Of a DNA stretch of 64,000 bases, positions 1 to 23,010 are shown piece by piece. This DNA comes from Salinigranum halophilum (GTDB taxonomy: Archaea > Halobacteriota > Halobacteria > Halobacteriales > Haloferacaceae): assembly GCF_007004735.1 (NCBI RefSeq), contig NZ_SSNL01000005.1, positions 496,001 through 560,000 on the forward strand, written 5' to 3'. How positions within the stretch are numbered: position 1 is the stretch's first letter; the number at the start of each line of letters is the position of its first letter. The notes beneath the pieces were generated by a model. The model was not told the DNA's origin, ran no database searches, and saw only the letters and a list, made by a program, of their open reading frames with translations. The position numbers and the translations under genes are program-made.

Positions 1-948
1 TACTTCCGTGGGGAAGGCCGCCCGCCACTCAACTCCGAGCGCATGACTGGTGGGACGCCCTTCGAGGAGGTCCAGACCATTCTGGACCAGCTCGACGACC
101 CGTGGCAGGAGGACGAAGACGATGCCCTCCTGCACAGCCTCGCCGACGACGGCCTCGTCGATGAGGATGACATCCCGGACATCATGGAGCTCCGTGATGT
201 CCTCGCGGCAGAACTCGACGAGGACAGAACTCCGCGGACGGAGTTCCGCGTCGCCCTTCGTGCGGCGTCCCCCGAGGTGCGAGAAGGGCTCGCCTGGCTA
301 CTCGCGTACCGTCCCAACACGGTGACCGCCACCAGCATGATCAGCCACGGGGTGGACGTCGACCGGTTCAACATGATGGTGTTCTTCGGAATGCCGCGTG
401 CCACTGCTGAGTACATCCAGTCCAGTTCCCGGGCTGGTCGCGCACACCCCGGGCTTGTGTTCAACATCCTCCACCCCATCCGGGAACGTGACCTGAGTCA
501 CTACCACTTCTTCGAGAAGTACCACCAGTTCCTCGACCGGCTCGTCGAACCCGTCTCGGTGAACCGATGGGCGAAGAACAGCGTCAAGCGGACGCAGCCG
601 GGGCAGTTCATGTCGCTCCTGCTTAACCACTACATGTACACCGACGACGGGGAGCTGATGTACTTCGGTGACCGGGCCGAAGAGTTCCTCTCGACGGTCG
701 ACGACGTCGACCTCGAGAACCTCCTCGTGGACATGTACGGTGGGTCGGAGGTCCCACCGGAGTTCAGCGACGACGTCCGGCAGCTCACCCGGAGTGCGAT
801 CTCCGAGGTCCAGTTGAGTGACCGACAGTGGACGAGCGAGCGCCTCCCCGGTCCTCCGATGCGGAGCCTGCGTGACGTCGACGAACAGCTCCCGATCGAT
901 CCTGAGTGGAAGTACAAGGACATCCTCAGCACCTACAACAACCGATAA
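1..948 (+). CDS. drmA: DISARM helicase DrmA, C-terminal part (gene runs off the left edge)
   Basis: The frame is open from base 1, so the 5' part, including the helicase motor's Walker motifs, lies outside the window. What remains is the second RecA-like lobe and tail of an SF2 helicase: a motif V-like stretch TSMISHGVDVDRFN and a motif VI-like stretch EYIQSSSRAGR. The tail is acidic and has no recognisable nuclease domain. It is followed after 2 nt by a DUF1998 gene and then a phospholipase D-type gene. That is the drmA-drmB-drmC core of DISARM, which is why I call DrmA rather than a generic helicase. DrmA is known as the DNA-loading/translocating subunit of this anti-phage system. The family call rests mainly on gene order, since the diagnostic N-terminus is not visible. 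Confidence 0.85.
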   Translation, partial: YFRGEGRPPLNSERMTGGTPFEEVQTILDQLDDPWQEDEDDALLHSLADDGLVDEDDIPDIMELRDVLAAELDEDRTPRTEFRVALRAASPEVREGLAWLLAYRPNTVTATSMISHGVDVDRFNMMVFFGMPRATAEYIQSSSRAGRAHPGLVFNILHPIRERDLSHYHFFEKYHQFLDRLVEPVSVNRWAKNSVKRTQPGQFMSLLLNHYMYTDDGELMYFGDRAEEFLSTVDDVDLENLLVDMYGGSEVPPEFSDDVRQLTRSAISEVQLSDRQWTSERLPGPPMRSLRDVDEQLPIDPEWKYKDILSTYNNR

Positions 949-950
949 CA

Positions 951-2909
951 ATGTCAATGGAACGTAGCAAGTCGCAGGTACTCTACCAGTTCCTGCCCGA
1001 GAACACGTTCGACTACAGCGGTCAGCGGGGCATCTGGAAGACCACGCGACTTGAGACGAGCGATGCGAGTGGTACCGTCAGCAAGGACTACATCCTCGGC
1101 CGCGTCCTCGCACGCATCCGAAACTGGGACGGGGGCCAGAACGGCTTCGTCTCGAACAACACCGACCACTACCACTTCGGCGTCCCCGAGGGTGTCCGGG
1201 CCGAACCGTTCCCCACGACCTACGAGTGCCAGAAGTGCGACAAAGCGCACGGGTACTACACCGCAGACGAGGTCAAGAACAACAACCCTGATCTCACCTG
1301 TGAGCGATCTGGCTGTAACGGGAACCTCGAACAGTACCAGTTCGTGAGTGTTCACACCTGCGGAGAAATCCGACGCCTCTACCCGCAGAAGTGCCCAAAC
1401 CACGGGGACCAGCACGTCATACTCAACCGCCGAAACAGTCAACGTGTCCGGAACTTCCACTGGAGCTGTGAGGTCGGTAACTGTTCATGGGACACTCCCA
1501 TCCGGAACTACCAGAACTGCAATTGCGACTACATGGCCCCCGAAGCAGAGGAGAATGACGGGATGTACACGACGGTCCACCGGGCCGGGAGCGTCTTCTA
1601 CCCCCACTACCTCTCGACAGTGAACCTGCACACCGCAGGCATCGGGCACCTCCGGAACTCTGAGGACGGAGCAAAGAGAGCGATCGCGAAGCTGTTCGGA
1701 CTGTCAGATGCCGGGTCGCTTCAGGACGTCAGTCTGCACCAGCGAACCGGCCAGGTCGAGGTAGACGACGAGAAGGTGGTGGAGATCTACACCACACACG
1801 ACGACATCACCACGCTCGACCAGGCACGTGAGCACCTCCGTGAACAGGGGACGCTGGAGAGCCAGACCATCCTCGAGCGTCTCGGCGAGACACTCGCTCT
1901 CGATACGGACGGCGAAACCTCCGAGCTCACCGAGGCTGGTGACGAGATTCTCCAGTACGTCCTCAGCCGCGAGTCGCTCACGACGGATACACTGGACGAA
2001 CTGGAATCGGACGCCCGGGACCGTGGGTTCACCGACAAAGCGGACCGCATCAACAGCTACCACGACGACCTGGAGGCGCTCGGATTCGACGACGTCCGCG
2101 TCATCGAGGACTTCCCTGTACAGACGTTCGTCTACGGGTACACCCGTGGCAGCCGTGAGGAAGGCGAAGCACGGATCAACGCGTTCTCACAGAGCGCGAG
2201 TGACGGTGACGGAACGCCGATCTTCGTCGACACGTCCGAAACAGAAGCGGTTCAGTTCGACCTAGACCCCGCACAGGTCCTGCTGTGGCTCGCACTCAAC
2301 ATCCCCGAGACGAGCGACCCGACCGCGGTGAACGGAGACATCGTCCTCCCAGAGGTCAGCGGCCGCGACGACGCTGCACTCGAGCACGCGAGAAGCGAAA
2401 TCGAATCGCTCTCCAGCGATGAGCAGTGGGCGTTCCTGCTCAATCACCTCGCGCCAGTCGAACGGTACGGCAAGTTCCAGACGGACCTCGACGATTCGGT
2501 CGAGGAGCAGGTCACAGAGCACGTGTTCCAGCTGGTCCACACGCTGAGTCACATCCTGCTGAAGCAGGCCAGTACCATCAGTGGATTCGACCGAACGAAC
2601 CTCAGCGAGTTCCTCTTCCCGCGCGCGCTCTCTGTCGTCATCTACGCGAATAACCGGGAAGAGTTCAACATCGGCGGGATGCACACGATGGTCGAACAGC
2701 AACTGGATAACCTCCTCGGACAGGCCGAAACGCACGGCAACGAGTGTGTGTACGACCCGGTCTGCTCACAGCGCGGTGGGGCCTGTCTCTCCTGCCTGCA
2801 CGTGAGTGAGATCAGCTGTTCGTACTTCAACCAAGTCCTCTCTCGGGACTTCCTGTTCGGGAGTCGACCGAACACTGACAAGGACATCGCCGGATACTGG
2901 ACACTGTAA
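951..2909 (+). CDS. drmB: DISARM protein DrmB (DUF1998)
   Basis: A 652-aa protein of the DUF1998 family, the partner that binds the DrmA helicase in DISARM. The N-terminal half has a zinc-finger-like set of cysteines (CQKC about 30 residues before a CERSGC motif). The C-terminus has the family's cysteine-rich block (CSQRGGACLSC followed by a Cys six residues later), preceded by a helix containing LVHTLSHILLKQA. The frame is open further upstream. I chose the ATG two bases after the drmA stop because an earlier start would overlap drmA by about 14 codons. The close spacing implies co-transcription and translational coupling with drmA. All cysteine clusters look intact. Confidence 0.9.
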   Translation: MSMERSKSQVLYQFLPENTFDYSGQRGIWKTTRLETSDASGTVSKDYILGRVLARIRNWDGGQNGFVSNNTDHYHFGVPEGVRAEPFPTTYECQKCDKAHGYYTADEVKNNNPDLTCERSGCNGNLEQYQFVSVHTCGEIRRLYPQKCPNHGDQHVILNRRNSQRVRNFHWSCEVGNCSWDTPIRNYQNCNCDYMAPEAEENDGMYTTVHRAGSVFYPHYLSTVNLHTAGIGHLRNSEDGAKRAIAKLFGLSDAGSLQDVSLHQRTGQVEVDDEKVVEIYTTHDDITTLDQAREHLREQGTLESQTILERLGETLALDTDGETSELTEAGDEILQYVLSRESLTTDTLDELESDARDRGFTDKADRINSYHDDLEALGFDDVRVIEDFPVQTFVYGYTRGSREEGEARINAFSQSASDGDGTPIFVDTSETEAVQFDLDPAQVLLWLALNIPETSDPTAVNGDIVLPEVSGRDDAALEHARSEIESLSSDEQWAFLLNHLAPVERYGKFQTDLDDSVEEQVTEHVFQLVHTLSHILLKQASTISGFDRTNLSEFLFPRALSVVIYANNREEFNIGGMHTMVEQQLDNLLGQAETHGNECVYDPVCSQRGGACLSCLHVSEISCSYFNQVLSRDFLFGSRPNTDKDIAGYWTL

Positions 2910-2952
2910 TCGGCTCCTAGCGTGTACGGCCACCGACTTATATAGAATTCAT

Positions 2953-3897
2953 ATGACTGACGACGAATCTGACTCGACGTGGTTGCCCCTTGCTATCGCC
3001 GAGTACGTCGATCGCGACGAGCAACTCCTCTCCCAGCTCGAAGGCCTGTTAGTCCTGTCTGGCGGCCGCGGTGAACTGGTGACGCCCGCAGAGATTGCGA
3101 ACAGAACAGATGTCTCCGTTGCCGCAACGACCGACACATTTCGACAGCTCTCACAGACTGACGCGGTCACTCGCGAGTCGTTCAGAACGAGTGTCGAGGA
3201 CAGCCCCTACCGGATCAACGTAGAGGTGTGCCGGAGGGTATTCGAGACAGCCCGCTACGCTGCGCGCAGTGTCAACGCATACGAAGCCCGTCAACCACCG
3301 GCGACAGAGGCAACGCCGCTGGTAACGTTCCCCGCTGACCCCGCCTTCGATGAGGTGAGCCCGACCTCGTTCGGGATGTCATGGCTGATGCCTACCCTTA
3401 CGCGACAGATCAAGAGGAGCAACACAACGATCACGCTGGTAGCACCGTTCTTCGAGAGAGACGGGTTCGCTCATCTCGAAGACGTGTTGCTTGCAGCCAT
3501 GGAGCGAGGTGTGTATATGAGGATAATTTCCCGGTATCTCACAGACACAGACTCGTACAACTACTCGGTCCTGAAGTCGTTCGCAGAGAGAGCGGATGAG
3601 CGCAACCTCGACCGGTCACTTCTCAGGTGTGTGGACTATACGCGCTGGAGTACTGGAACACCCTCGACACAACGTCGTCAAGATGGTGCTACCCCTGCGT
3701 TTACTCTACACGCCAAGATCATGCTCTTCGACGATAAAGCAGCGTACGTCGGGAGTGCGAACGTCACAGACTACGGATTTGAGCACTATCTCGAAACCGG
3801 TGTGCTCCTCGAAGGTCCACCCGTCGAGGGCTTCGTTGACCTCGTAAGCTTCCTACTGAACTCGGAGGCCGCGACAACGGTATCTCTAATTGATTAA
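2953..3897 (+). CDS. drmC: DISARM protein DrmC (phospholipase D-like)
   Basis: A 314-aa protein with one complete HKD motif near the C-terminus (LHAKIMLFDDKAAYVGSAN), typical of single-HKD PLD-fold nucleases that work as dimers. The centre (about residues 145-200) has the other half of the PLD fold, TLTRQIKRSNTTITLVAP. The N-terminal 90 residues look like a winged helix (TPAEIANRTDVSVAATTDTF). In DISARM, DrmC accompanies DrmAB and in some systems is dispensable. I start at the ATG at 2953; the frame extends upstream, but that would overlap drmB by about 35 codons. The 43-nt gap to drmB suggests the same transcript. An AT-rich TTATAT lies only 14 nt upstream, too close to be a leaderless promoter. 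Confidence 0.88.
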   Translation: MTDDESDSTWLPLAIAEYVDRDEQLLSQLEGLLVLSGGRGELVTPAEIANRTDVSVAATTDTFRQLSQTDAVTRESFRTSVEDSPYRINVEVCRRVFETARYAARSVNAYEARQPPATEATPLVTFPADPAFDEVSPTSFGMSWLMPTLTRQIKRSNTTITLVAPFFERDGFAHLEDVLLAAMERGVYMRIISRYLTDTDSYNYSVLKSFAERADERNLDRSLLRCVDYTRWSTGTPSTQRRQDGATPAFTLHAKIMLFDDKAAYVGSANVTDYGFEHYLETGVLLEGPPVEGFVDLVSFLLNSEAATTVSLID

Positions 3898-3970
3898 TAG
3901 GGTTTATTGAATATCTAAGTTCATGTGAATTGACAAAGCGCATCCGGTACTGTCTGCTACTGTTACGTTA

Positions 3971-3988
3971 TCAATATCAATATCAATA
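3971..3988 (+). repeat. Three tandem copies of TCAATA upstream of the DUF262 gene
   Basis: Three perfect head-to-tail copies of TCAATA lie in the 134-bp gap between drmC and the DUF262 gene, ending 14 bp before its TATA box. They could be a binding site for a regulator or a simple AT-rich spacer. Nothing more can be said from sequence. Confidence 0.6.
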
Positions 3989-4001
3989 TCGTATGAGGCA
4001 C

Positions 4002-4007
4002 TAATAT
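4002..4007 (+). promoter_or_regulatory. Probable TATA box of the DUF262-DUF1524 gene
   Basis: TAATAT is centred about 27 nt before the ATG at 4032. That is the spacing expected when a haloarchaeal gene is transcribed leaderless from its own promoter. It suggests the gene is not only read through from drmABC. Confidence 0.55.
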
Positions 4008-4031
4008 GTGCATCCTCTCTGACAGACCGGT

Positions 4032-6497
4032 ATGGCTGATGAAAATCGGACGCTCTACGATACCTACATTGATTACGACCACGTTGACCTCGATATAACA
4101 GCGGTTGCAGACCACGTCGCGATGCAGCAGATCGCGGGCGACAATTTCGAGATGGAAAAGAGAACGTTGGAAGAGATTCTCTCTGATCGGAGATTTAACG
4201 TTCCGGAATACCAGCGACTGTTTTCATGGAAAGAAAAGCACCATCGACAACTGTGGTCTGACCTCCAGCAGTTCGTGGAGGCCGATCTCGTCAAGGACTC
4301 CGACATCTCTGACGTGTTCTTTAGTTCGATGTACTTCGCTGTCGACAAAGACAGCAACACACACGAAATTATTGACGGCCAACAACGACTCACATCGGTC
4401 AACATCCTCTTACTCTCTATCCTCGAGGAACTCCGTGCCCTCAACGCCGAGTCGATCCGGCAGGAGACTGTCAGTCGACTACGGGATGGGAGTATCAAGC
4501 AGATTGAGTCCCTTCTCTACCGCTTCGAGAATCCGCTCAAGGGAGACGTCCCGCGTCTGTCTCTCAACAAGCACGATGATGACGACGACGCAGACCTAGG
4601 GTTCTTCGAGGCCCTCATGCTGGGGCCTGAAGCCCGACTAGAGTATCTCTGTTCAGACGAACGTGAATACGTCGACGGTCGCCGCGGTGATGCGACTAGA
4701 ATATCGGACCTCGTTGAGGAATTCCGAATTAGCGAACAAGTCGTCGAAGAACAAGACCCTGATACGTCCTCTTTCTCAAATTTCACGCCGGTATATGACT
4801 CGAACTGGCGATTGCTCGACGCCTACAACTTCTACAAAGACCGCGTTCAGGAGGTCGTTGATACGGCAGACGATACCGACAGCAAGGCGCTAGCGCTGAT
4901 TAATCTCGGGCACTACATCCAGAATTCGTATCACGTCGGCGAGTTCATTATCCGGAACGCGGCACCCGACTTCCGGATGCAAATCTTCAAGATTCTCAAC
5001 GACCGCGGGCTGGAACTCACCAAGATCGACCGTATCCGAGCGGCGGTCGTGAACGCGTTCTTCGATGCCGACGACCGACAAGAGTACGTGGATAAGTGGG
5101 AAGATATTGTGGTCGCATTCGCCACCGATGTCGATCAGATTGACGACTATCTCTCCGTCTACCTCAGCATCGTCGACCCCGAAATCGAGACGGTAGGTGA
5201 AGCCAGTGCGGAACTCACCAACGCGTTCGCGACGCGCAATCTCGAGTCCGATGTTCGTCCACGATTGCGCCATCCGGACGACGCTCGAGACTTCCTCGAC
5301 CATGCTCACGACCTCGTTCAGTACTACAAACACATCACTAATTCAGCGCTGGATCCTACCGACCTCGCTCTCACAGAGGCACACGAGAAATGCCAGGAGG
5401 TGCTGGTTCGTCTCAACGACCAGCGGATGAATCAGTGGCGTCCATTTGTTTTGGCGCTGTATCACCACACGGTGACGGACCCGACTGCGAGCGGTGAACA
5501 GCTCTACGAAGCACTGGACGCGGTCGAGAAACTCAATTTCAGACGGCTCCTCGTTGGGGAAGATCCGAACATCTTCCAAGAAATATTCATCGAAACCGTC
5601 CATCGATTCTCGCTTTCGCCCGAGAAAGAGGATCGTGAGAACGTGTACGGTGACTCGTGTCGCTATCTGATTGACGAGATGCGGTCGTCGAACCCGTCGA
5701 TGTTTTCAGATAGGTTCGTGGATATTGTCACTCAAGCACAGGCATGGAACCCTCAGACCGCGAAATTGTTGTTCGGGAAAGTCGCGAACGAACACTTCCG
5801 TGAGGACGGAATGTACGTCGAACGGCGTCTGAACATGGGAAGCATTCATCTCGAACACGTACTCCCACAGAGTCTGATACATGACGTTGACAACCCGATA
5901 TGGCTGACTGAATTCTTCCAACTCGAGGACAACGAGGTAGAGATCGCAGAAGCAATTCAGACCTATATCAAGTTGTGTCGCAGGGACGGCGAACTCGACG
6001 AGGACAAACGTCAACGTCGAGACAATATCAAGGAGTTTATTTCTCAGCGTTTTGTCAACGACCTCGGGAATTTCCTCCTGCTCCGCGACAGTGACAACAT
6101 CAAGGCGAGCAATCTCCATCTCGCCGAAAAAATGCCTCAGTACTTCGATACCGGGGAGGACTTCCGGAGCATCCTCCCGAACCGATATTTCACCGAAACA
6201 GAGGGAGTAGTGGACAGGGACAAACTCGAATCCCTACTTGAACAGTCTCAAGCAATCAAGGCAGGAGAGCGTGACCAGATTGATTCAGCCTTGGCAGACT
6301 ATTTCAATTCTCTTTGGACGTACGAGGCGTTGCAGGACAGACGTATCGGTCTTCTCGAGGATACACTCGATATTGTGGAGTTTGACCAGCTCGATGATGA
6401 GTTCGGACTCGCGTCCGATCGTGATGGAGTACGTGAACAGATCCGCACGCAGACTGAAGGGGAGTTTGTGAAACGCCTCTCGCTTCGGTCGCTCTGA
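4032..6497 (+). CDS. DUF262-DUF1524 protein (GmrSD/SspE-type nuclease) embedded in the DISARM locus
   Basis: An 821-aa protein. The N-terminal DUF262 domain (about residues 40-150) has VPEYQRLFSWKEKHHRQLW and the nucleotide-handling signature IDGQQRLTS. The C-terminal DUF1524 domain (about residues 590-700) has an HNH-like core, IHLEHVLPQSL, followed about 70 residues later by LGNFLLLRDSDNIKASN. This pairing is that of GmrSD type IV restriction enzymes and of SspE, where NTP binding controls DNA cleavage by the HNH-like domain. It is not a standard DISARM subunit, yet it sits between drmC and the methyltransferase on the same strand. By eye the gene is more AT-rich than its surroundings, which suggests separate acquisition. 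Its target (modified or phage DNA) cannot be read from sequence. Confidence 0.85.
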   Translation: MADENRTLYDTYIDYDHVDLDITAVADHVAMQQIAGDNFEMEKRTLEEILSDRRFNVPEYQRLFSWKEKHHRQLWSDLQQFVEADLVKDSDISDVFFSSMYFAVDKDSNTHEIIDGQQRLTSVNILLLSILEELRALNAESIRQETVSRLRDGSIKQIESLLYRFENPLKGDVPRLSLNKHDDDDDADLGFFEALMLGPEARLEYLCSDEREYVDGRRGDATRISDLVEEFRISEQVVEEQDPDTSSFSNFTPVYDSNWRLLDAYNFYKDRVQEVVDTADDTDSKALALINLGHYIQNSYHVGEFIIRNAAPDFRMQIFKILNDRGLELTKIDRIRAAVVNAFFDADDRQEYVDKWEDIVVAFATDVDQIDDYLSVYLSIVDPEIETVGEASAELTNAFATRNLESDVRPRLRHPDDARDFLDHAHDLVQYYKHITNSALDPTDLALTEAHEKCQEVLVRLNDQRMNQWRPFVLALYHHTVTDPTASGEQLYEALDAVEKLNFRRLLVGEDPNIFQEIFIETVHRFSLSPEKEDRENVYGDSCRYLIDEMRSSNPSMFSDRFVDIVTQAQAWNPQTAKLLFGKVANEHFREDGMYVERRLNMGSIHLEHVLPQSLIHDVDNPIWLTEFFQLEDNEVEIAEAIQTYIKLCRRDGELDEDKRQRRDNIKEFISQRFVNDLGNFLLLRDSDNIKASNLHLAEKMPQYFDTGEDFRSILPNRYFTETEGVVDRDKLESLLEQSQAIKAGERDQIDSALADYFNSLWTYEALQDRRIGLLEDTLDIVEFDQLDDEFGLASDRDGVREQIRTQTEGEFVKRLSLRSL

Positions 6498-6635
6498 TAA
6501 CGCTAAGACCCGATTCCCTGCAATCCGGTCACTGGGTCAATTTCTGTACCTCTACTTTGAGATGAGACACCATGAGCCGTGCTCAAGATGTGTTCCACCG
6601 GCTGCCTGAGTTTCCGGAACCGCATGACCAGGAGG

Positions 6636-6641
6636 TTTAAA
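6636..6641 (+). promoter_or_regulatory. Probable TATA box of the methyltransferase gene
   Basis: TTTAAA is centred 27 nt before the ATG at 6666. This is the leaderless-promoter spacing, and it also decides the start: a further ATG at 6579 would place the box inside the gene. Confidence 0.6.
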
Positions 6642-6665
6642 TCACACCACGCAGAAAGGGTACCT

Positions 6666-8909
6666 ATGTCCGGACCGGCCACTTCTTGCGGTTCTCCATC
6701 TGAGCAGGTGCGTTCTGCTCCAGAAGCTGAACGCACATTGCACAAACAGTTGCTTCTGGATAACCTCGATTTTCTCATAGATACACTGACCGCAGAGCAC
6801 GTTCGGCGTCAACAGCAGCCTCCTGCCGGCTGTCCCCGTGCCACCCCCGAAAACATCGCTCGAAATCAGTCCAAAAGCGGGGACCCCTGCCGGTACCACG
6901 CTATCCAAGCGGAGAGTAGCGAGCCTGACGGGGAGTGTCCATGTGGCGACCCGCTCATCGAAAGCGACGATCCACTTGACACCGTCGCTGCGGTCGTCCT
7001 TGGGAAACAGACGACATCCCCTTCAAAACGGTTCTTCGACCGGATTCCGAGGAAGACGGTAGCGAACCTTCGCGAGGAGTATGGGACTTGGGAAGACATC
7101 GCAGCGCTGGATCGGAAAGACCTGCATGAGGCAGTCTGTGCTGCCAGTCCTCGAAAGGGGGTAAGCACGGAACGGATCGATTGCTTGCAATTGCTACTTG
7201 AGGCAGTTCGTGAGACACGCTATACAGAGGGCACGACTCTTTGTAGTTTCTCAAGAGTCCAGTACTCAACCTATGTGACATTCCTCCAAACCCTTCCGAG
7301 GATCGGAGAGCAGGACGCGTGGTGGATACTTCAGACCGCATTTGACAAGCCAGTTTGGCCCGCAGACCCGCTGATTGATGAACTACTGGTCTCGCTGGGG
7401 TTGCTTGCTCCTGATCTCCCGCCAGAATCGACTGGTCGTCACACCGAACTCGAGGAGGAACTGATCGACCGCCACGTCCCTATTCTGTACCGAGCGCTCG
7501 CCACCCATGCTGTCAACTCGGACACCGCTAGCTGTGGTGATAACTGCGAAATACGGAAGTTCTTGCTAACATACCGGCTCGAGGAACAACAAAAGGAGTG
7601 TTATGGGCCTGTGGTCGTCGACCTGTTCGCCGGAGCAGGAGGATTGTCACACGGTCTTGCTCGGGCGGGATACGATATCCGGTGGGCGATTGATATCGAG
7701 CCCGATGCTGTTGCGACATACCGCCTGAACCATCCGGGGATTCCACATCAGAATGTGGTCTGTGGCGACGTGAGGGAAATCGATTTATTCGCAGCAATTC
7801 GGGAAGTGGCGCCCAATCCGGATCTTATCGTAGGGGGGCCTCCTTGTCAATCACTCTCCCAAGCAGGATACCGATCCCGTCGAGCGAAAGACGACGACTA
7901 CAGCGTGCTTGACGACGACCGGACATCCCTGTACACGAAATATGTCGAAGCTGTCGACGAGCTTCGTCCGAAGGCTATCGTGATGGAGAATGTGGAAGGT
8001 ATGGTCAACAAAGTCGGTGATACGGACGTACGCGTCATCGACTGGATAATTGAGGACTTAGAAGCTCTTGGTGAGAACGGAGAAGGGTATCAGGTCTGTT
8101 TCCGTCTCCAAGATATGACTGAGCTCGGAATTCCGCAGGAACGTGAACGTGTTCTGCTTGTCGGAATTCGGAACGATCTTGCCGTCAGTGAAAACGAGGC
8201 AGAGGACCTTCTGAATAATCTCAAGATAATAGATGACAATCGGACAATCCGACAGGGGTTGTCTGGACTTCCACGTCTACGTCGTGGGGAAGGTGGACGC
8301 GTCTTGGCAGAGATTGGCCGAGGGTCAAAAAGCCAGTACGTGAAGCAGAACGGCCTCCACAAGGGAACCGAGCTCTGCTTCAATCACCGGGCACGTGAAC
8401 ACCCGATGGAAAAAGATAGAATCCTGTTCGAGGAAGGGCTGCAGCCGGGAGACACTGGCTGGGACGTCAAGTACAATTCTGATGGGAAGTACGCCGAGTA
8501 TATTGAGTACGATGTGGGAACTGCCGACAATCCCCGCTTCCGAGACAAATATCGGAAACTCGAATGGTCGAAGCCATCACCGACAATAGTCGCTCACCTC
8601 GCTAAGGACGCGAATGGGTTTGTACTACCCGACTACTACGAATGCGCTCGTCCGGACCCTGAACGTGCAGATCCTAGGCGAAACCGAGGAATCACTCCCC
8701 GGGAGGCGGCGAGGTTGCAATCGTTCCCGGACCACTATATTTTTCTCGGGCCGTTTACCAGCTGGTTCCGTCAGATAGGGAATGCAGTACCTCCAGTAGC
8801 AGGAGAATTGATTGGTGAGGCTCTGCTGGTCATACTGGCCGATAATCTTGGGGAGATTGCTCCGAAGGGAAGGCGGTGTTCAGTCGCGGAGCTGGCATCT
8901 GACGATTGA
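6666..8909 (+). CDS. drmMII: Cytosine-5 DNA methyltransferase with N-terminal endonuclease III-like domain (DrmMII position)
   Basis: A 747-aa protein, long for the family. The C-terminal 430 residues hold an apparently complete C5 methyltransferase: motif I DLFAGAGG (about 319), motif IV GPPCQ with the catalytic Cys (about 391), motif VI MENVEG, motif VIII QERERV and motif X GNAVPP. Residues about 100-300 match the HhH-GPD fold of endonuclease III: DPLDTVAAVVLGKQTTS, then LPRIGEQDAWWILQTAF and PADPLID. The catalytic Lys position of EndoIII is Gln here, but the catalytic Asp is kept. The four-Cys iron-sulfur loop is reduced to CGDNC. The region before it has further Cys pairs. In DISARM the C5 methyltransferase protects self DNA. 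The start follows the TATA box at 6636. Confidence 0.85.
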   Translation: MSGPATSCGSPSEQVRSAPEAERTLHKQLLLDNLDFLIDTLTAEHVRRQQQPPAGCPRATPENIARNQSKSGDPCRYHAIQAESSEPDGECPCGDPLIESDDPLDTVAAVVLGKQTTSPSKRFFDRIPRKTVANLREEYGTWEDIAALDRKDLHEAVCAASPRKGVSTERIDCLQLLLEAVRETRYTEGTTLCSFSRVQYSTYVTFLQTLPRIGEQDAWWILQTAFDKPVWPADPLIDELLVSLGLLAPDLPPESTGRHTELEEELIDRHVPILYRALATHAVNSDTASCGDNCEIRKFLLTYRLEEQQKECYGPVVVDLFAGAGGLSHGLARAGYDIRWAIDIEPDAVATYRLNHPGIPHQNVVCGDVREIDLFAAIREVAPNPDLIVGGPPCQSLSQAGYRSRRAKDDDYSVLDDDRTSLYTKYVEAVDELRPKAIVMENVEGMVNKVGDTDVRVIDWIIEDLEALGENGEGYQVCFRLQDMTELGIPQERERVLLVGIRNDLAVSENEAEDLLNNLKIIDDNRTIRQGLSGLPRLRRGEGGRVLAEIGRGSKSQYVKQNGLHKGTELCFNHRAREHPMEKDRILFEEGLQPGDTGWDVKYNSDGKYAEYIEYDVGTADNPRFRDKYRKLEWSKPSPTIVAHLAKDANGFVLPDYYECARPDPERADPRRNRGITPREAARLQSFPDHYIFLGPFTSWFRQIGNAVPPVAGELIGEALLVILADNLGEIAPKGRRCSVAELASDD

Positions 8910-9260: not shown

Positions 9261-10325
9261 TCAGGCCAGCCGACCCGTCAGCACCTCTGCGACCTCACGC
9301 GTCCCGTACCGTCCGTTGTAGGCCCCAGCCACGTCTCGAGAGTATCCACTCACCTTCGACTTCGACGTCGGCACGACTGCACTTGCCGCGTCCGCGACGT
9401 CCTGCTGAGTCATCGCCTTCCCCTCGGTCAACCGGTCAGCCACATACACCGCCGCAGCCGCAATCGTCACACGTGCCGTCCCTGGGCCGATACACGCCTC
9501 GTCAGCCAACTCGAGGAGGAACTCGCCGACCCGCCTGAGTTCGAGACACACATCGAGCGACAGTCCCTTCTGCTCGCCCAGCACCTCGACGACTGCGTCG
9601 ACCGCCCACGCCTGGGTTGGAGGCACCTCGCTCACCAACCCGAGTTCACACCGCAGCTTCCGCGCGGCTGCACACAGTCGCTCGTGCGACGTCTTCGCGT
9701 GGACCGCGACCTCCTTGGTCGTTCGCCGGAACCCAGACTGGCTCGTCGCCACGTACACTGCCCCAGCTGCGAGCGCCTCCCACCCCATCCGACCACCCGG
9801 AAGCCGCTCCTCCGAGGCCTGTTTCAACAACGCCGCCGCGTCCGCCGCGACGACGTTCGGGAGTCCGAGATTGCCGACGATCATCTGGATGTCACGGAGG
9901 CCTTCGTTGAGTCGAATCGCCCGCTTCGACTCCATCTGGAAGCGCTTGTGTCGCATCCGCAGCCGCCCGAACTTGTCTTTCTGCGCCTTCGTCAGCGCGT
10001 TCCCGTACCCATCCGAGGAGAGGAAGAACGTCGTGTGTAGGCCTTTGTCCACACGAAGCGACGTCGTCGTCTCGAGGCACCACTCAACGTGTCCCGACCC
10101 GACCGCACCCTGCTTGTGCAGACTGGGGCTCATCGCCCGTCGAAGGGCGTCCTCGTCAACGACCAATCCACACGTCTCACACACCGTCTCGATCGACTCA
10201 TGAACCAGCCGACCACCGCACTCGTCACACCGCGTCGCCTGCGCTGCTCGCCCGACCGCCCGCGTTCGCGCCTGTTCGTCAATCTGTTCCGAAGCTTCTT
10301 GTCCGATTGCGTTGTTACTAGACAT
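9261..10325 (-). CDS. tfb: Transcription initiation factor B (TFB paralogue)
   Basis: A 354-aa archaeal TFIIB homologue that recruits RNA polymerase to TBP-bound promoters. An N-terminal zinc ribbon has CDECGG and CETCG. It is followed by a linker/B-finger-like segment (KGLHTTFFLSSDGYG, then KFGRLRMRHKRFQ) and two cyclin-like repeats, each ending in an alanine-rich helix (ALAAGAVYVATSQ and TIAAAAVYVADRL). It is somewhat longer than the usual roughly 320 residues because of an N-terminal extension. Haloarchaea carry several TFBs. This one sits alone among palindromic repeats beside a defence locus and a HerA-type gene, so it is probably an accessory paralogue rather than the housekeeping one. 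No nearby gene appears to share its transcript. Confidence 0.93.
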   Translation of the reverse strand: MSSNNAIGQEASEQIDEQARTRAVGRAAQATRCDECGGRLVHESIETVCETCGLVVDEDALRRAMSPSLHKQGAVGSGHVEWCLETTTSLRVDKGLHTTFFLSSDGYGNALTKAQKDKFGRLRMRHKRFQMESKRAIRLNEGLRDIQMIVGNLGLPNVVAADAAALLKQASEERLPGGRMGWEALAAGAVYVATSQSGFRRTTKEVAVHAKTSHERLCAAARKLRCELGLVSEVPPTQAWAVDAVVEVLGEQKGLSLDVCLELRRVGEFLLELADEACIGPGTARVTIAAAAVYVADRLTEGKAMTQQDVADAASAVVPTSKSKVSGYSRDVAGAYNGRYGTREVAEVLTGRLA

Positions 10326-11813: not shown

Positions 11814-11996
11814 TCGAGAACGCACAGCCACGGCGTGGCCACAGGCCACAGAGAACAGCAGTGCCACGAGGAGACGAACAGGGACACGACACGGCCACTC
11901 GGGACGGGAGTCGAACGGGTGGAGTGGACGCGAAACGAGACGGCACGGGATGAGACGATGCACAGTCTCGTCTCGAAGACTCCACACACGGTCAGC

Positions 11997-14900
11997 ATGG
12001 CAACGAAAGACGACACAGACCGGAACGGACGCATCGATGACGAACCGACAGCGCTCGGGCCTGACATCGAGCCCAGCGGAGACGAACCGCCACACGGAGA
12101 ACTCACAGTAACCGACTTCACTGCTGAGAGCACACAGAACACCAGTTCGTCCCCGCTCTCGAACGCACCGACACCACGGCCATATATCGAGATTCGGCCC
12201 TCGTCGAGTGGGCTCTCGGCGCGGGCGGTCGTCGCGTCGATGCAGAAGCTGTACGTCACACTAGAGTCGCTGACCGAAGACGCGGGACTCCTCCAGCGCC
12301 TTGGTCTCCGATCACGCGCGCCACCACCGACAGTCGAGTGGGTGTTCGTCGGTGATGGCCGCGCGGATACGAGTATCCGCTGGCTCGTCGGCGTCACGGG
12401 CACGCCGGCTGCGGAGGCCCACAGGCAAGACGAACGAGACGAAAAAGAGGCGAGCGAATCGAGCCGCGGGAGACACAAGACGGCAGCGGGGCGTGACCGC
12501 GAAGCGGCTGAAGACGCGGCCGTCACCCACCGTCTCCATCGCATCGAACGCGTCCTCCGGCAGACGCTCCCGAGTACGTACGAGTTGCGACGAGTGCAAT
12601 GGCACCCAGAATACCTAACAGAGCACCTGCCCGCACCCGTCGTGTCACCGCCGCCGTCGAATCCACACGAGCGTGTCGGGCCACACCACCCCGCCATCAC
12701 GGTCGACTCACCGTACGTTGCGGGTGTCGAATATCGGGGGCGAGCCACGCACACGAAAGACTGGCAACTCCCACTGACGCGATTCGGCGACCCCCTCGAG
12801 TCATCACCGTCAGCATCGGCCGTGACCTCGCCTTCGGCTTCGACAGGCGCGCCGCGTCGCACTCGTGACCAACAGCAGGGGCAGGTCGGGAGTGAGACAC
12901 AGCAGTGCACGCTGTCGGGTGTGATCGAGACGATCCGCGATGCAGAGACGCCAGTCATCTATCAGGTCGTGTGTCGACCGATCGAGCCGTGGACACGCGA
13001 GGCTGACGCGTACCGCTGGGAACTCGAGAACGGTGAGCCGACACTCGCGAGTAAGGCCTTCGAGTTGTTGTTCCCCCGCTCGCCCGAGGACCGAGAGGCG
13101 TTCGAACCGTCTCCGTCGTCACAGGCGCGGCTGGACGCGCTCGAAACGCGCAACACCCACCAGTCGTTTGGCGTCTGTGTCCGTGCCGTTGCCCTCACGC
13201 GCGACACGCCGGTCGCTGCGGACAGCGTCGCACGGCAGTTGGCGACGGAACTCGAGACGGTCGGGAGTACACACCATCGCATCGAGGGAGCCGTCCGGAC
13301 GGATGACGACCTCCACACAGAACGAGAGCCGCCGGGCAGTCAGCTCTTCACCGACCTCGTCGAGCGGAGGTGGCACGCCCCCACGTACGGGGACCGACCA
13401 CTCAAAAACGGGTTCAGACGACAGCCGAGTCGTGGGCTCGTCGTCACGCCTGCGGAGTTGCCCAGCCTGTGTCTGGTCGATGGAGCGAGACTCACACCGA
13501 ACGGCCAGCGGGCACTCTCACTTCGGCACGGCGAGCGGACGGGGCTCGTCTTACCCCCACCGGGCGTCTTAGCGCAGTATACCGAGCCGGGGCAGACGCT
13601 CTGTCAGCCACTGACGCACGACCGTCGACCCTACCTCCGGCCGTTCGTGAACCCGGTCGCTCTCCAGGACAAACATCTCGTCATCGCCGGGACGACCGGG
13701 TCGGGGAAGTCCGTCACCATACAGACGGGGCAACTGAGTAACGTTGTGGCGACTGCAGGCCCGGAGATCATCTTCGACCACAAGAGTGGGCAGACGAGTG
13801 TGGAGTTCATGCAGTCGTACTACGCAGCGTATGGAACGCTCGAGGACGTCATCTACTTCGACCTCTCGCAGGTGCTGCCGGCGCTGTCGTTTTTCGATAT
13901 CCGGCCGCTCCTCAACGCGGGCGTTCCCCGCCAGGAGGCGGTCGAACGGACGGTCGGGCACTACGAGGAGATTCTCAGGACGCTCTGGGGGGCCGACCAG
14001 TACGACGCGAAGGAGGCACCGAAGGCGATTCGCATGCACGCGAGGGCGCTGTTCGATCCCGTCCACGGGTCGGACGCCTTCAGCAACGACGACTTGCGAG
14101 AGGCGCTGAGCCGGACGCTGTCAGAACAGATTACGCCGCCGGTCTCCAACGAGAAGTACGAGCGGTATTTCAGGGAGTTCTTACAGCGACGACACGAGGT
14201 GTTCGGGGCAGCGATGGGCGGTGCGATCAGTCGAGTCGAGAAGATCGACACCAGTAGCCGACTCGCGCCACTGTTCGATCACGTTCACCGCCAAGACCCA
14301 GGTCACGCTGACGACGACAACGACAATGACAACGACAACGACAACGACGACGCGTCGGTAACCCATCCCGCGTTCAGCTTCGCCGATATTGTCGACGAGG
14401 ACGTCACGGTGGTCTTCGACTTCGGTGGGATGGAAACAGAGATCAAGGCGGCGCTGACGCTCGTTCTCCTCTCAGACCTGTGGACGGCGCTCGAGTCTCG
14501 AGCGACCGGAGCGAAGCGGCCGGAGTCGTCGGAAGCGTCACACTCGCAGGTGAACCTCTATCTCGAGGAGGCGGGCTCGGTCGCCAACTCGCCGATCGTC
14601 GATACCCTGCTCTCACAGGGGCGGTCGTTCGGCCTGTCGGTCATGCTGGGCGTGCAGTATCTGGGACAGCTTCGCTCGCAAGACGACGATGATGACACCT
14701 ACTACGAGACGCTGAACGAGACGGCGACGTTCATCGTGGGGAACGTCGCGGTCGATGACGATATTACGAACGTCCTCGCGACGGCTGACATGCCGCCACA
14801 GGCGGTGGCCCGTCGACTGGCTGCGATGCGTCGCGGTGAGTGGCTCGTCCGCCCGGGCGCGCTCTTCGGGGAGGAGACACCACGCCCGTTTCTCGCAGAG

Positions 14901-16145
14901 TCACTTCCGGCTCCCACGGGACACCCAGCCAGCGATGAGCCGCTTGCGGAGGATTCAGCGAAGAAGCTCCGATTCGATGTCGCGCTCGTCCGTGCGGAAG
15001 AACGGACCCGTCGGCGCTACGGGTATGCCCATCGCGACCCTGATGTGACGGCGAACGCCAACGCAGGGACGGGGACGAACGATTCGACGGCTGGCACACA
15101 GCCGACTGCGGGCGGAGCGGACAGTGACGATGCGACCAGCGCCGACGAGCCGAATCCAGATCCCGCTGTCGAGGCCGCACAGAACGGCTCGCTCTTGCCA
15201 CACACGAAGCGGTTCCCTACGTTTCTCAGCTACGATGAGCCACGCCGGGCGATTCAGTGTGTCGAGTGTGGGACCCGCTACAATCCCTCGGAGGCTGGCA
15301 TCCGTGATGCCATCGAGTGTTGTCACGCGTTCGAGGAGGTCGACCGCGACGACATCCCCACACTCACCGCCCACCTGAAGCTCGCACCCGCCGAGATTCG
15401 TGGCTCGCCGTGGTCGCCAGGGCAACTCCGGTTCATCCAGACGGTCTGGAACGCCCAGCAGGGCACCTATAGCGACCTGGAGTACGATATCACACGCGAC
15501 AGCATGGTTCGCCTCCGTGAGTACGTCGGGGTGGCGGTCGACGAGGTTGAGGCGCTCGTCGACGCAGACCTGATCCGCGAGGATACCACGCTCCCGCATC
15601 TCCTCTACAGCGTGACCGCTGCCGGCCGCGACGCCGTCGGCGAGCATTATCGCGAAGGGGTGGATTACGGCCCCGGCCGGGGTGACTTGGGTGAGTCGAG
15701 CGAACACATCATGATGGTCGAGCTCGCGACGTGGCTTGCCGAACAGCGCTGTGCCGATCCGGAACACGACGCGGCGACTGTCTCGCCGTATCATCAACTC
15801 GATGATGGCCGCCGCCTTGACGTGGCGTGTCTGGATGCCGAGGGAGAGATCGTCGTCGCCATCGAAGCCGAGCGGATCAACAACGACGCGCCGACCGCAG
15901 CCCCGACCGATTTCGATAAGATGGCCGACTGTGGCGCAGCTGAGGCCATCTGGGTCGTCTCGGGGCTGAGCGCTGCCTCGAAGCTCACGGAGGCCCTACA
16001 CGACCCGGCCGATGGCGAGCCGCGAATCGACCGGACCTACAGCCCGACCAGTCAAACACAGAAGTACCGGATCGACGAACCCGGTTTTACCGACATTCAC
16101 ACCGTTAGAGGCCTCATCAAGCGTCGTGAACAGGACGCCGAGTGA
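11997..16145 (+). CDS. HerA/FtsK/VirB4-type ATPase with C-terminal nuclease-like domain
   Basis: A 1382-aa protein. An N-terminal region of about 550 residues of unknown fold is followed by a P-loop ATPase: Walker A GTTGSGKS (about 565-572), a Walker B-like strand VNLYLEEAG (about 852-860), and an SQGRSFGLSVMLGVQYLGQ segment typical of HerA/VirB4/TraG motors. About residue 1085 there is a CVECG-type zinc site, then a winged-helix-like part. The last 150 residues read like a PD-(D/E)XK fold: a Glu in VELATW, Asp in GRRLDV, Glu-x-Glu in VAIEAER, and a Lys further on. Proteins of this build occur on haloarchaeal plasmids and integrated elements and may move DNA in conjugation or act in defence. 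The frame is open upstream to 11835; I chose the ATG at 11997 because coding-like composition begins there. Confidence 0.8.
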   Translation: MATKDDTDRNGRIDDEPTALGPDIEPSGDEPPHGELTVTDFTAESTQNTSSSPLSNAPTPRPYIEIRPSSSGLSARAVVASMQKLYVTLESLTEDAGLLQRLGLRSRAPPPTVEWVFVGDGRADTSIRWLVGVTGTPAAEAHRQDERDEKEASESSRGRHKTAAGRDREAAEDAAVTHRLHRIERVLRQTLPSTYELRRVQWHPEYLTEHLPAPVVSPPPSNPHERVGPHHPAITVDSPYVAGVEYRGRATHTKDWQLPLTRFGDPLESSPSASAVTSPSASTGAPRRTRDQQQGQVGSETQQCTLSGVIETIRDAETPVIYQVVCRPIEPWTREADAYRWELENGEPTLASKAFELLFPRSPEDREAFEPSPSSQARLDALETRNTHQSFGVCVRAVALTRDTPVAADSVARQLATELETVGSTHHRIEGAVRTDDDLHTEREPPGSQLFTDLVERRWHAPTYGDRPLKNGFRRQPSRGLVVTPAELPSLCLVDGARLTPNGQRALSLRHGERTGLVLPPPGVLAQYTEPGQTLCQPLTHDRRPYLRPFVNPVALQDKHLVIAGTTGSGKSVTIQTGQLSNVVATAGPEIIFDHKSGQTSVEFMQSYYAAYGTLEDVIYFDLSQVLPALSFFDIRPLLNAGVPRQEAVERTVGHYEEILRTLWGADQYDAKEAPKAIRMHARALFDPVHGSDAFSNDDLREALSRTLSEQITPPVSNEKYERYFREFLQRRHEVFGAAMGGAISRVEKIDTSSRLAPLFDHVHRQDPGHADDDNDNDNDNDNDDASVTHPAFSFADIVDEDVTVVFDFGGMETEIKAALTLVLLSDLWTALESRATGAKRPESSEASHSQVNLYLEEAGSVANSPIVDTLLSQGRSFGLSVMLGVQYLGQLRSQDDDDDTYYETLNETATFIVGNVAVDDDITNVLATADMPPQAVARRLAAMRRGEWLVRPGALFGEETPRPFLAESLPAPTGHPASDEPLAEDSAKKLRFDVALVRAEERTRRRYGYAHRDPDVTANANAGTGTNDSTAGTQPTAGGADSDDATSADEPNPDPAVEAAQNGSLLPHTKRFPTFLSYDEPRRAIQCVECGTRYNPSEAGIRDAIECCHAFEEVDRDDIPTLTAHLKLAPAEIRGSPWSPGQLRFIQTVWNAQQGTYSDLEYDITRDSMVRLREYVGVAVDEVEALVDADLIREDTTLPHLLYSVTAAGRDAVGEHYREGVDYGPGRGDLGESSEHIMMVELATWLAEQRCADPEHDAATVSPYHQLDDGRRLDVACLDAEGEIVVAIEAERINNDAPTAAPTDFDKMADCGAAEAIWVVSGLSAASKLTEALHDPADGEPRIDRTYSPTSQTQKYRIDEPGFTDIHTVRGLIKRREQDAE
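14310..14352 (+). repeat. Asp/Asn-coding hexanucleotide tandem repeat inside the ATPase gene
   Basis: Repeats of GACAAC (one GACAAT variant), flanked by GACGAC, encode an alternating Asp-Asn run between two ATPase segments. It is in frame and a multiple of three, so length changes would be tolerated. It is probably a flexible linker. Confidence 0.75.
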
Positions 16146-22219: not shown

Positions 22220-23010
22220 CACGAGTCGTCCCCCAGGTAGATGCGCTGGACCGCGGGGTCGGACTCGATCTCGTCGATGGGGCCCTCGCGGAACACGTCG
22301 CCGTTGTGGAGGACGGTCACCTCGTCGGCGATGTCGGCGACGAAGTCGGTGTCGTGTTCGATGACGACGAAGGCGATTCCCTCCTGTTCGTTGAGTCGCG
22401 TGACGCGCTCGGCGATGGCGCTGCGCTCTTCGACGTCGAGACCGGCGACGGGTTCGTCGAGGAGGAGCAGGTCCGGTTCGAGCGCGGCGGCCATCCCGAG
22501 CTCCAGTTGCTGCTGTTGGCCGTGTGAGAGGGTGCTCGCTTCGACCCGTTCGTAGCCAGCGAGTCCCGCGGCGGCGATCGCCGCGTCGACGCGCTGGCGG
22601 CGCTCCGCGCCGTCCGCGAAGCGCTGGATGGGGAGCCGAGCGTTCTCGCGGACCGTCAGGTCGCCGTAGACGGAGGGGACCTGGAACTTCATGCTGATGC
22701 CCTGTTGGACCCGCTCGTACGGGGCGAGGTCGGTGATGTCGAGCCCGTCGTAGTAGACGCTGCCGGCGCTCGGCGAGTGCGTGCCGGTGATGAGCTTCAA
22801 CAGCGTCGACTTCCCCGCACCGTTCGGGCCGATGAGACAGCGGAGTTCCCCCGCCGTGACGCTGAAGTCGACCTCGTCGATGGCGGTGAAGCCACCGAAG
22901 TCCTTGCGGAGGCCGTCGGTCTGTAACAGCGTGTCGGTGGTGTCGCCCGTCGCCAGGTGCGCCGCCGTCTGGCGGACGTCCGGGTGGCCGGTGGCGTCGT
23001 CCGTGCTCAT
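22219..23010 (-). CDS. urtD: Urea/amide-type ABC transporter ATPase UrtD
   Basis: A 263-aa ATPase with GPNGAGKST, a signature variant STLSHGQQQQLE, and LLLLDEPVAGLDVEE, then VIEHD. The Q-rich signature without the SGG triad is characteristic of UrtD rather than LivG. A roughly 30-residue N-terminal extension precedes the ABC fold. It lies 2 nt downstream of urtC and overlaps urtE. Confidence 0.87.
   Translation of the reverse strand: MSTDDATGHPDVRQTAAHLATGDTTDTLLQTDGLRKDFGGFTAIDEVDFSVTAGELRCLIGPNGAGKSTLLKLITGTHSPSAGSVYYDGLDITDLAPYERVQQGISMKFQVPSVYGDLTVRENARLPIQRFADGAERRQRVDAAIAAAGLAGYERVEASTLSHGQQQQLELGMAAALEPDLLLLDEPVAGLDVEERSAIAERVTRLNEQEGIAFVVIEHDTDFVADIADEVTVLHNGDVFREGPIDEIESDPAVQRIYLGDDS

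Follow-up and report, generated by a model that had tools for sequence, protein, structure and literature searches.

Gene content and class of the locus

We analysed a 64,000-nt stretch of the Salinigranum halophilum genome (hereafter the window; G000:C4:496001-560000) and also read the part upstream of it. The left end of the window carries the 3' part of drmA, followed by drmB, drmC, a single DUF262-DUF1524 gene and a C5 cytosine methyltransferase gene, all on the + strand (Table 1). This order had been given in the initial annotation of the window, and its GmrSD/SspE-like gene between drmC and the methyltransferase is borne out by GmrSD_N and GmrSD_C matches. The complete drmA ORF comprises 1267 aa (L003:5145-8948), its 5' portion lying outside the window. 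Base composition differs along the locus, with a GC content of 0.63 for drmA, 0.60 for drmB, 0.53 for the DUF262 gene and 0.55 for the methyltransferase; the latter two genes are thus more AT-rich than drmAB, as had been claimed, and an even lower GC content (0.475) is found in drmMI, beyond the window.

Table 1 Features of the DISARM locus within the window.
Feature	Position in window	Strand	Evidence
drmA, last 315 aa	1..948	+	PADLOC DrmA 1.1e-39, Helicase_C 8e-7
drmB (DUF1998-type), 652 aa	951..2909	+	PADLOC DrmB 2e-53; 97% identical relative in L125
drmC, phospholipase-D-type nuclease	2953..3897	+	PLDc_2 1e-12, DrmC 4e-13
Variable cargo slot	3898..6536	.	blastn of slot regions, border sequences
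DUF262-DUF1524 (GmrSD/BrxU-like) protein, 821 aa	4032..6497	+	GmrSD_N 2.6e-25, GmrSD_C 1.4e-7
Stretch common with the 89%-identical G094 copy: gene plus 33 nt upstream	3999..6500	+	83% DNA identity, flanks unrelated
TATA-like box GTTTAAAT	6634..6641	+	border sequences; also in L125, L126, L127
C5 cytosine methyltransferase, 747 aa, with N-terminal endonuclease III-like domain	6666..8909	+	DNA_methylase 3e-59
Endonuclease III-like (HhH-GPD fold) domain	6741..7568	+	hmmsearch EndoIII 7e-4, Foldseek 1.3e-4, VIA Z 13.1, alignment

Upstream of the window lie the rest of drmA, a divergent drmMI, an AspBHI_N-HNH nuclease gene, a drmD-like helicase gene and another C5 methyltransferase gene. The DrmMI/type IIG-like methyltransferase (1336 aa) matches PADLOC DrmMI at 1.5e-103, and the 980-aa SNF2 helicase, of the BrxHII/DrmD group, matches DrmD at 2.1e-110 and BrxHII better, at 2.2e-166. 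The AspBHI_N-HNH protein (348 aa; L002:11640-12686, corresponding to G000:C4:487640-488686), whose AspBHI-type domain is N-terminal, adjoins drmMI and is a probable modification-dependent nuclease; its HNH part also occurs in L125, L126, L132, L134 and L135.

Class 1 DISARM is defined by drmMI and drmD. Here drmA, drmB and drmC are adjacent, and the locus also has the adenine methylase gene drmMI and a drmD helicase, though one that the BrxHII model outscores; of the class 2 markers, the C5 methylase is present, and no drmE match was found among those genes of the region that were scanned. Judged by gene content, the locus is therefore a class 1-like DISARM with an extra C5 methyltransferase, and assignment to class 2 is not supported. 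The earlier class 2 framing arose from the window edge, which had cut off the upstream genes, and was dropped when drmMI and the drmD-like gene came to light there. All five gene types of class 1 DISARM (drmD, drmMI, drmA, drmB and drmC) are present, and the locus departs from that class in its C5 methyltransferase with an endonuclease III-like domain, its AspBHI_N-HNH nuclease gene, its variable slot and a drmD-like helicase that scores best to BrxHII. DISARM components are named in PMC9142583.

Further into the window, a 1436-aa protein with matches to conjugation-type ATPases (TrwB/TraG; 11835-16145) adjoins a TFB gene (9261-10325), and the DISARM locus may lie inside or beside a plasmid-like element. 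Integration anchored at a tRNA gene was considered and set aside: the 3' end of the tRNA-Asp called by ARAGORN (22299-22376) is not repeated, and the call, which overlaps an ABC-transporter-like gene on the opposite strand, is probably false.

A C5 methyltransferase with an endonuclease III-like domain

Translation of the methyltransferase probably begins at ATG 6666, not at GTG 6579, as suggested by conservation and by a TTTAAA box about 26 nt upstream that is also found in relatives. Its N-terminal 315 residues gave no significant Pfam match, but a profile matched endonuclease III (hmmsearch, 7e-4). A predicted model of the domain (pLDDT 72.6) likewise matched endonuclease III in Foldseek (1.3e-4) and aligned to it in VIA-align with Z 13.1 and an rmsd of 4.7 over 218 aligned residues, indicating an HhH-GPD fold. 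Weak matches to the domain in other genomes look, judged by length, like ordinary endonuclease III proteins, and no relative of the methyltransferase domain was found in viral_contigs.

The domain shares the fold of the endonuclease III family but lacks its catalytic apparatus in part: the catalytic Lys is absent in 13 of 13 aligned sequences, the Asp, residue 234 counted from ATG 6666, is kept in 11 and changed in 2, the iron-sulphur Cys loop is not kept, four other Cys are invariant, and the whole is fused to a C5 methyltransferase. Most simply, it would be a DNA- or base-recognition domain; with the Asp kept in most sequences, it may still have a glycosylase activity that does not depend on the Lys.

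Mobility of the DUF262-DUF1524 gene as a single unit

The 821-aa protein combines a DUF262 domain bearing DGQQR and a DUF1524 domain bearing an HNH motif in one chain, as is characteristic of GmrSD/BrxU type IV enzymes, and its motifs PEYQRLFSW, IIDGQQR, LEHVLPQ and LGNFLLL are intact. It is the only PF03235 protein in the genome. The closest copy, in G094, shares DNA similarity with the window over 3999-6500 only and sits 7 kb from a different DISARM, away from any drmABC of the window's type; between the two copies dN/dS is 0.052. This low ratio and the intact motifs argue for a working protein.

Many haloarchaea carry homologues with 55% identity, often on plasmids (Halobacterium, Haloplanus, Haloarcula, Halorubrum and others). 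Compared with one another, these copies show 91-93% DNA identity across the gene and roughly 110 bp upstream of it, and their flanks differ: some neighbour a DUF1156 methylase and a PLD-SNF2 helicase (Hma-like), others different large genes, and commonly the gene follows a 368-aa gene and precedes a ParA-like gene. Comparison of these copies indicates that the DUF262 gene moves as a unit on its own, with homologues on haloarchaeal plasmids beside unrelated defence genes. Two degenerate or rearranged relatives were also seen: a Halobellus limi copy broken into two frames by a frameshift (L033:16941-19376), and a chimeric gene in which the N-terminal 313 aa of DUF262 (85% identity) are fused into a DrmMI-like match (aa 424-1185; L034:5914-8986). 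A DUF262 scan of genome_contigs found nothing.

Such mobility, with its varied neighbours, would suit a selfish or transient passenger of defence islands, with no functional link to DISARM, that acts by itself as a type IV enzyme or simply persists. Among the drm loci fetched, only this genome has the insertion, and the Halobellus limi copy is frameshifted, both consistent with a passenger; the strong purifying selection and intact motifs speak against it, and we consider this reading unlikely.

By sequence, the nearest solved relative of the protein is SspE, at a weak E of 0.0069, and PADLOC SspE models match at 1e-10, as might be expected of an SspE-like nicking effector of a phosphorothioation system. 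PADLOC HEC-06 and Orf5 models score far better, however, no Ssp genes were seen in the locus, and TIGR03183 (DndC), a marker of the phosphorothioation system with which SspE partners, had no match in the genome, so that such a role is highly improbable.

Slot contents turn over among related loci

Our searches covered 170 genomes from the family and 392 from the order, and genes in relatives were called with our own simple gene finder. Searched with drmB, the 392 genomes of the order yielded 15 further loci with E < 1e-60 and identities of up to 97%. Five of these haloarchaeal loci (L125 to L129; drmB identity 76-97%) have in common the arrangement of drmMI next to drmA-drmB-drmC-slot-methyltransferase, and each fills the slot differently from the window. 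L125 holds an Nmad3 protein, a 194-aa protein and an HhH-GPD glycosylase; L126 a PDDEXK_5 nuclease; L127 and L128 an HhH-GPD glycosylase alone; and L129 a small protein and an HhH-GPD glycosylase. A Mig-like glycosylase is thus present in four of the five and PDDEXK_5 in one, and none of the five has a DUF262 gene in the slot.

Blastn of the slot regions and comparison of the border sequences place the exchange precisely. Homology between the window and L125 ends just past the stop codon of drmC (3897) and picks up again at 6537, a point that in L125 lies immediately ahead of the glycosylase start codon; against L126 and L127 it resumes at about 6620. Both borders of the L125 comparison are sharp, indicating that the slot content was exchanged as a block. 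No terminal repeats and no insertion-sequence or transposon ends were found at the slot borders, and no convincing glycosylase remnant was found in the window's slot. The clean borders and variable contents support the stepwise assembly that the initial annotation had suggested. That annotation had also named, as speaking against its reading, an insertion confined to this genome or flanked by element ends and without effect on protection; within the genomes searched the insertion is indeed unique to this genome, and the search for flanking element ends revealed no terminal repeats at the slot.

Outside the slot, drmA and drmB of L125 are 96-97% identical to those of the window, the C5 methyltransferase 85% and DrmMI 72%; in this comparison, the modification enzymes diverge faster than the DISARM core.

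The view that the DISARM module includes the DUF262 gene as a conserved component did not survive this comparison, as a family profile run against about 34 other fetched drmAB loci detected no DUF262 protein of this family and the same-order loci hold other genes in its place. The same observations bear on whether the protein is an integral DISARM effector, recruited or activated by DrmAB in the manner of DrmC or of the relatives' slot genes. The gene lies within the module, starts 134 nt past drmC and has the same orientation, the relatives' slot occupants include a nuclease (PDDEXK_5), and DISARM has been proposed to mix and match nucleases (PMC9142583). Yet homologues of the gene stand alone beside unrelated defence genes, none occurs in the roughly 34 other drmAB loci fetched, the downstream methyltransferase has its own promoter-like box, and the slot occupants of relatives are mutually unrelated and mostly on the opposite strand. 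Integration into the DISARM mechanism is accordingly quite improbable.

The usual occupant is a Mig-like glycosylase

The slot glycosylase of relatives, one example of which is that of Halomarina oriensis (L159), matches Mig (1KEA) best, at 1.5e-30 over 200 aa, with MutY close behind. It is an HhH-GPD protein with the FeS Cys, is without the MutY C-terminal domain and carries the Mig residues G-x-x-N-[QH]-R and FNLxLxD, features that identify it as probably Mig-like (T:G mismatch) rather than MutY. The active-site Tyr was dropped as a Mig marker, as the same Tyr is found in the genome's own MutY. Mig.MthI (PDB 1KEA) is the nearest solved relative of this glycosylase, which, like Mig.MthI, adjoins a C5 methyltransferase. 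Unlike Mig.MthI, the relatives' glycosylase lies within DISARM loci, is absent from the window's slot and has a T:G activity that is predicted.

The methyltransferase is often accompanied by a Mig-like glycosylase in relatives, and the same pairing occurs in Halarchaeum rubridurum, L134 and Halomicrobium katesii, where identity in drmA and drmB is down to about 30%. The glycosylase is split in Natrinema pallidum, and in Natrinema gari and Salinarchaeum laminariae a remnant of some 55 residues is left. We infer from its family and neighbourhood that the slot glycosylase would protect C5-methylated sites against deamination. Elsewhere, the window's genome has only one MutY-like and one endonuclease III-like protein; without a Mig-like gene, repair of deaminated 5-methylcytosine in this host must rest on other enzymes.

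A probable type IV cargo in a DISARM turnover slot

The explanation that we favour, and hold to be probable, is that the DUF262-DUF1524 gene is a BrxU/GmrSD-like type IV cargo of a class 1-like DISARM, placed in a turnover slot that usually holds a Mig-like glycosylase. The class 1-like DISARM also carries the fusion of a C5 methyltransferase with an endonuclease III-like domain, and the small slot between drmC and this methyltransferase has contents that turn over. The usual occupant, a Mig-like thymine-DNA glycosylase, would repair T:G mismatches arising by deamination of the methylase's 5-methylcytosine; in Salinigranum halophilum a mobile single DUF262-DUF1524 gene occupies its place. By analogy with its family, DUF262 is expected to sense modified DNA and hydrolyse nucleotide, after which the DUF1524 HNH domain would cut. 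In this way the protein may, like BrxU alongside BREX, extend protection to viruses that evade DISARM through modified DNA.

The closest precedent is BrxU of the pEFER BREX locus, a type IV enzyme of the GmrSD family and, as here, a single-polypeptide DUF262-DUF1524 protein in a methylation-based defence locus; its gene is inserted between brxC and pglX, and its protection is complementary to BREX (PMC8565348). The BrxU motifs DGQQR and [DE]H-x-x-P are also present in the window's protein, which differs in its host system (DISARM), its archaeal host and its length of 821 aa. A second, modification-dependent restriction activity at the locus is plausible, given intact motifs, a dN/dS of 0.05 and the tested precedent of BrxU in BREX.

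GmrSD, BrxU and SspE differ in the modification that they sense, and BrxU acts on 5mC DNA (PMC10952713). A DUF262 protein acting on 5mC as BrxU does would be self-harming beside a C5 methylase unless it were context-specific. As the gene adjoins a 5mC methylase and a probable m6A methylase, the protein should spare the host's own marks.

A broader idea, to which we give little credence, is that the C5 methyltransferase-endonuclease III-like fusion and the Mig-like glycosylase form a base-recognition/base-excision module, and that the adjoining slot exchanges glycosylase, PDDEXK and GmrSD-like enzymes as alternative DNA-damaging DISARM effectors.

Under the favoured reading of a type IV cargo, the locus represents a defence system with a defined place for the exchange of accessory enzymes and gives DISARM an equivalent of BrxU in BREX. 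A further pointer is to a DISARM variant with a C5 methylase carrying an endonuclease III-like domain, often with a likely mismatch-repair partner, a combination that no paper in the literature searched describes. Because nature supplies a set of loci that differ in what the slot contains, the part played by each cargo is open to direct testing.
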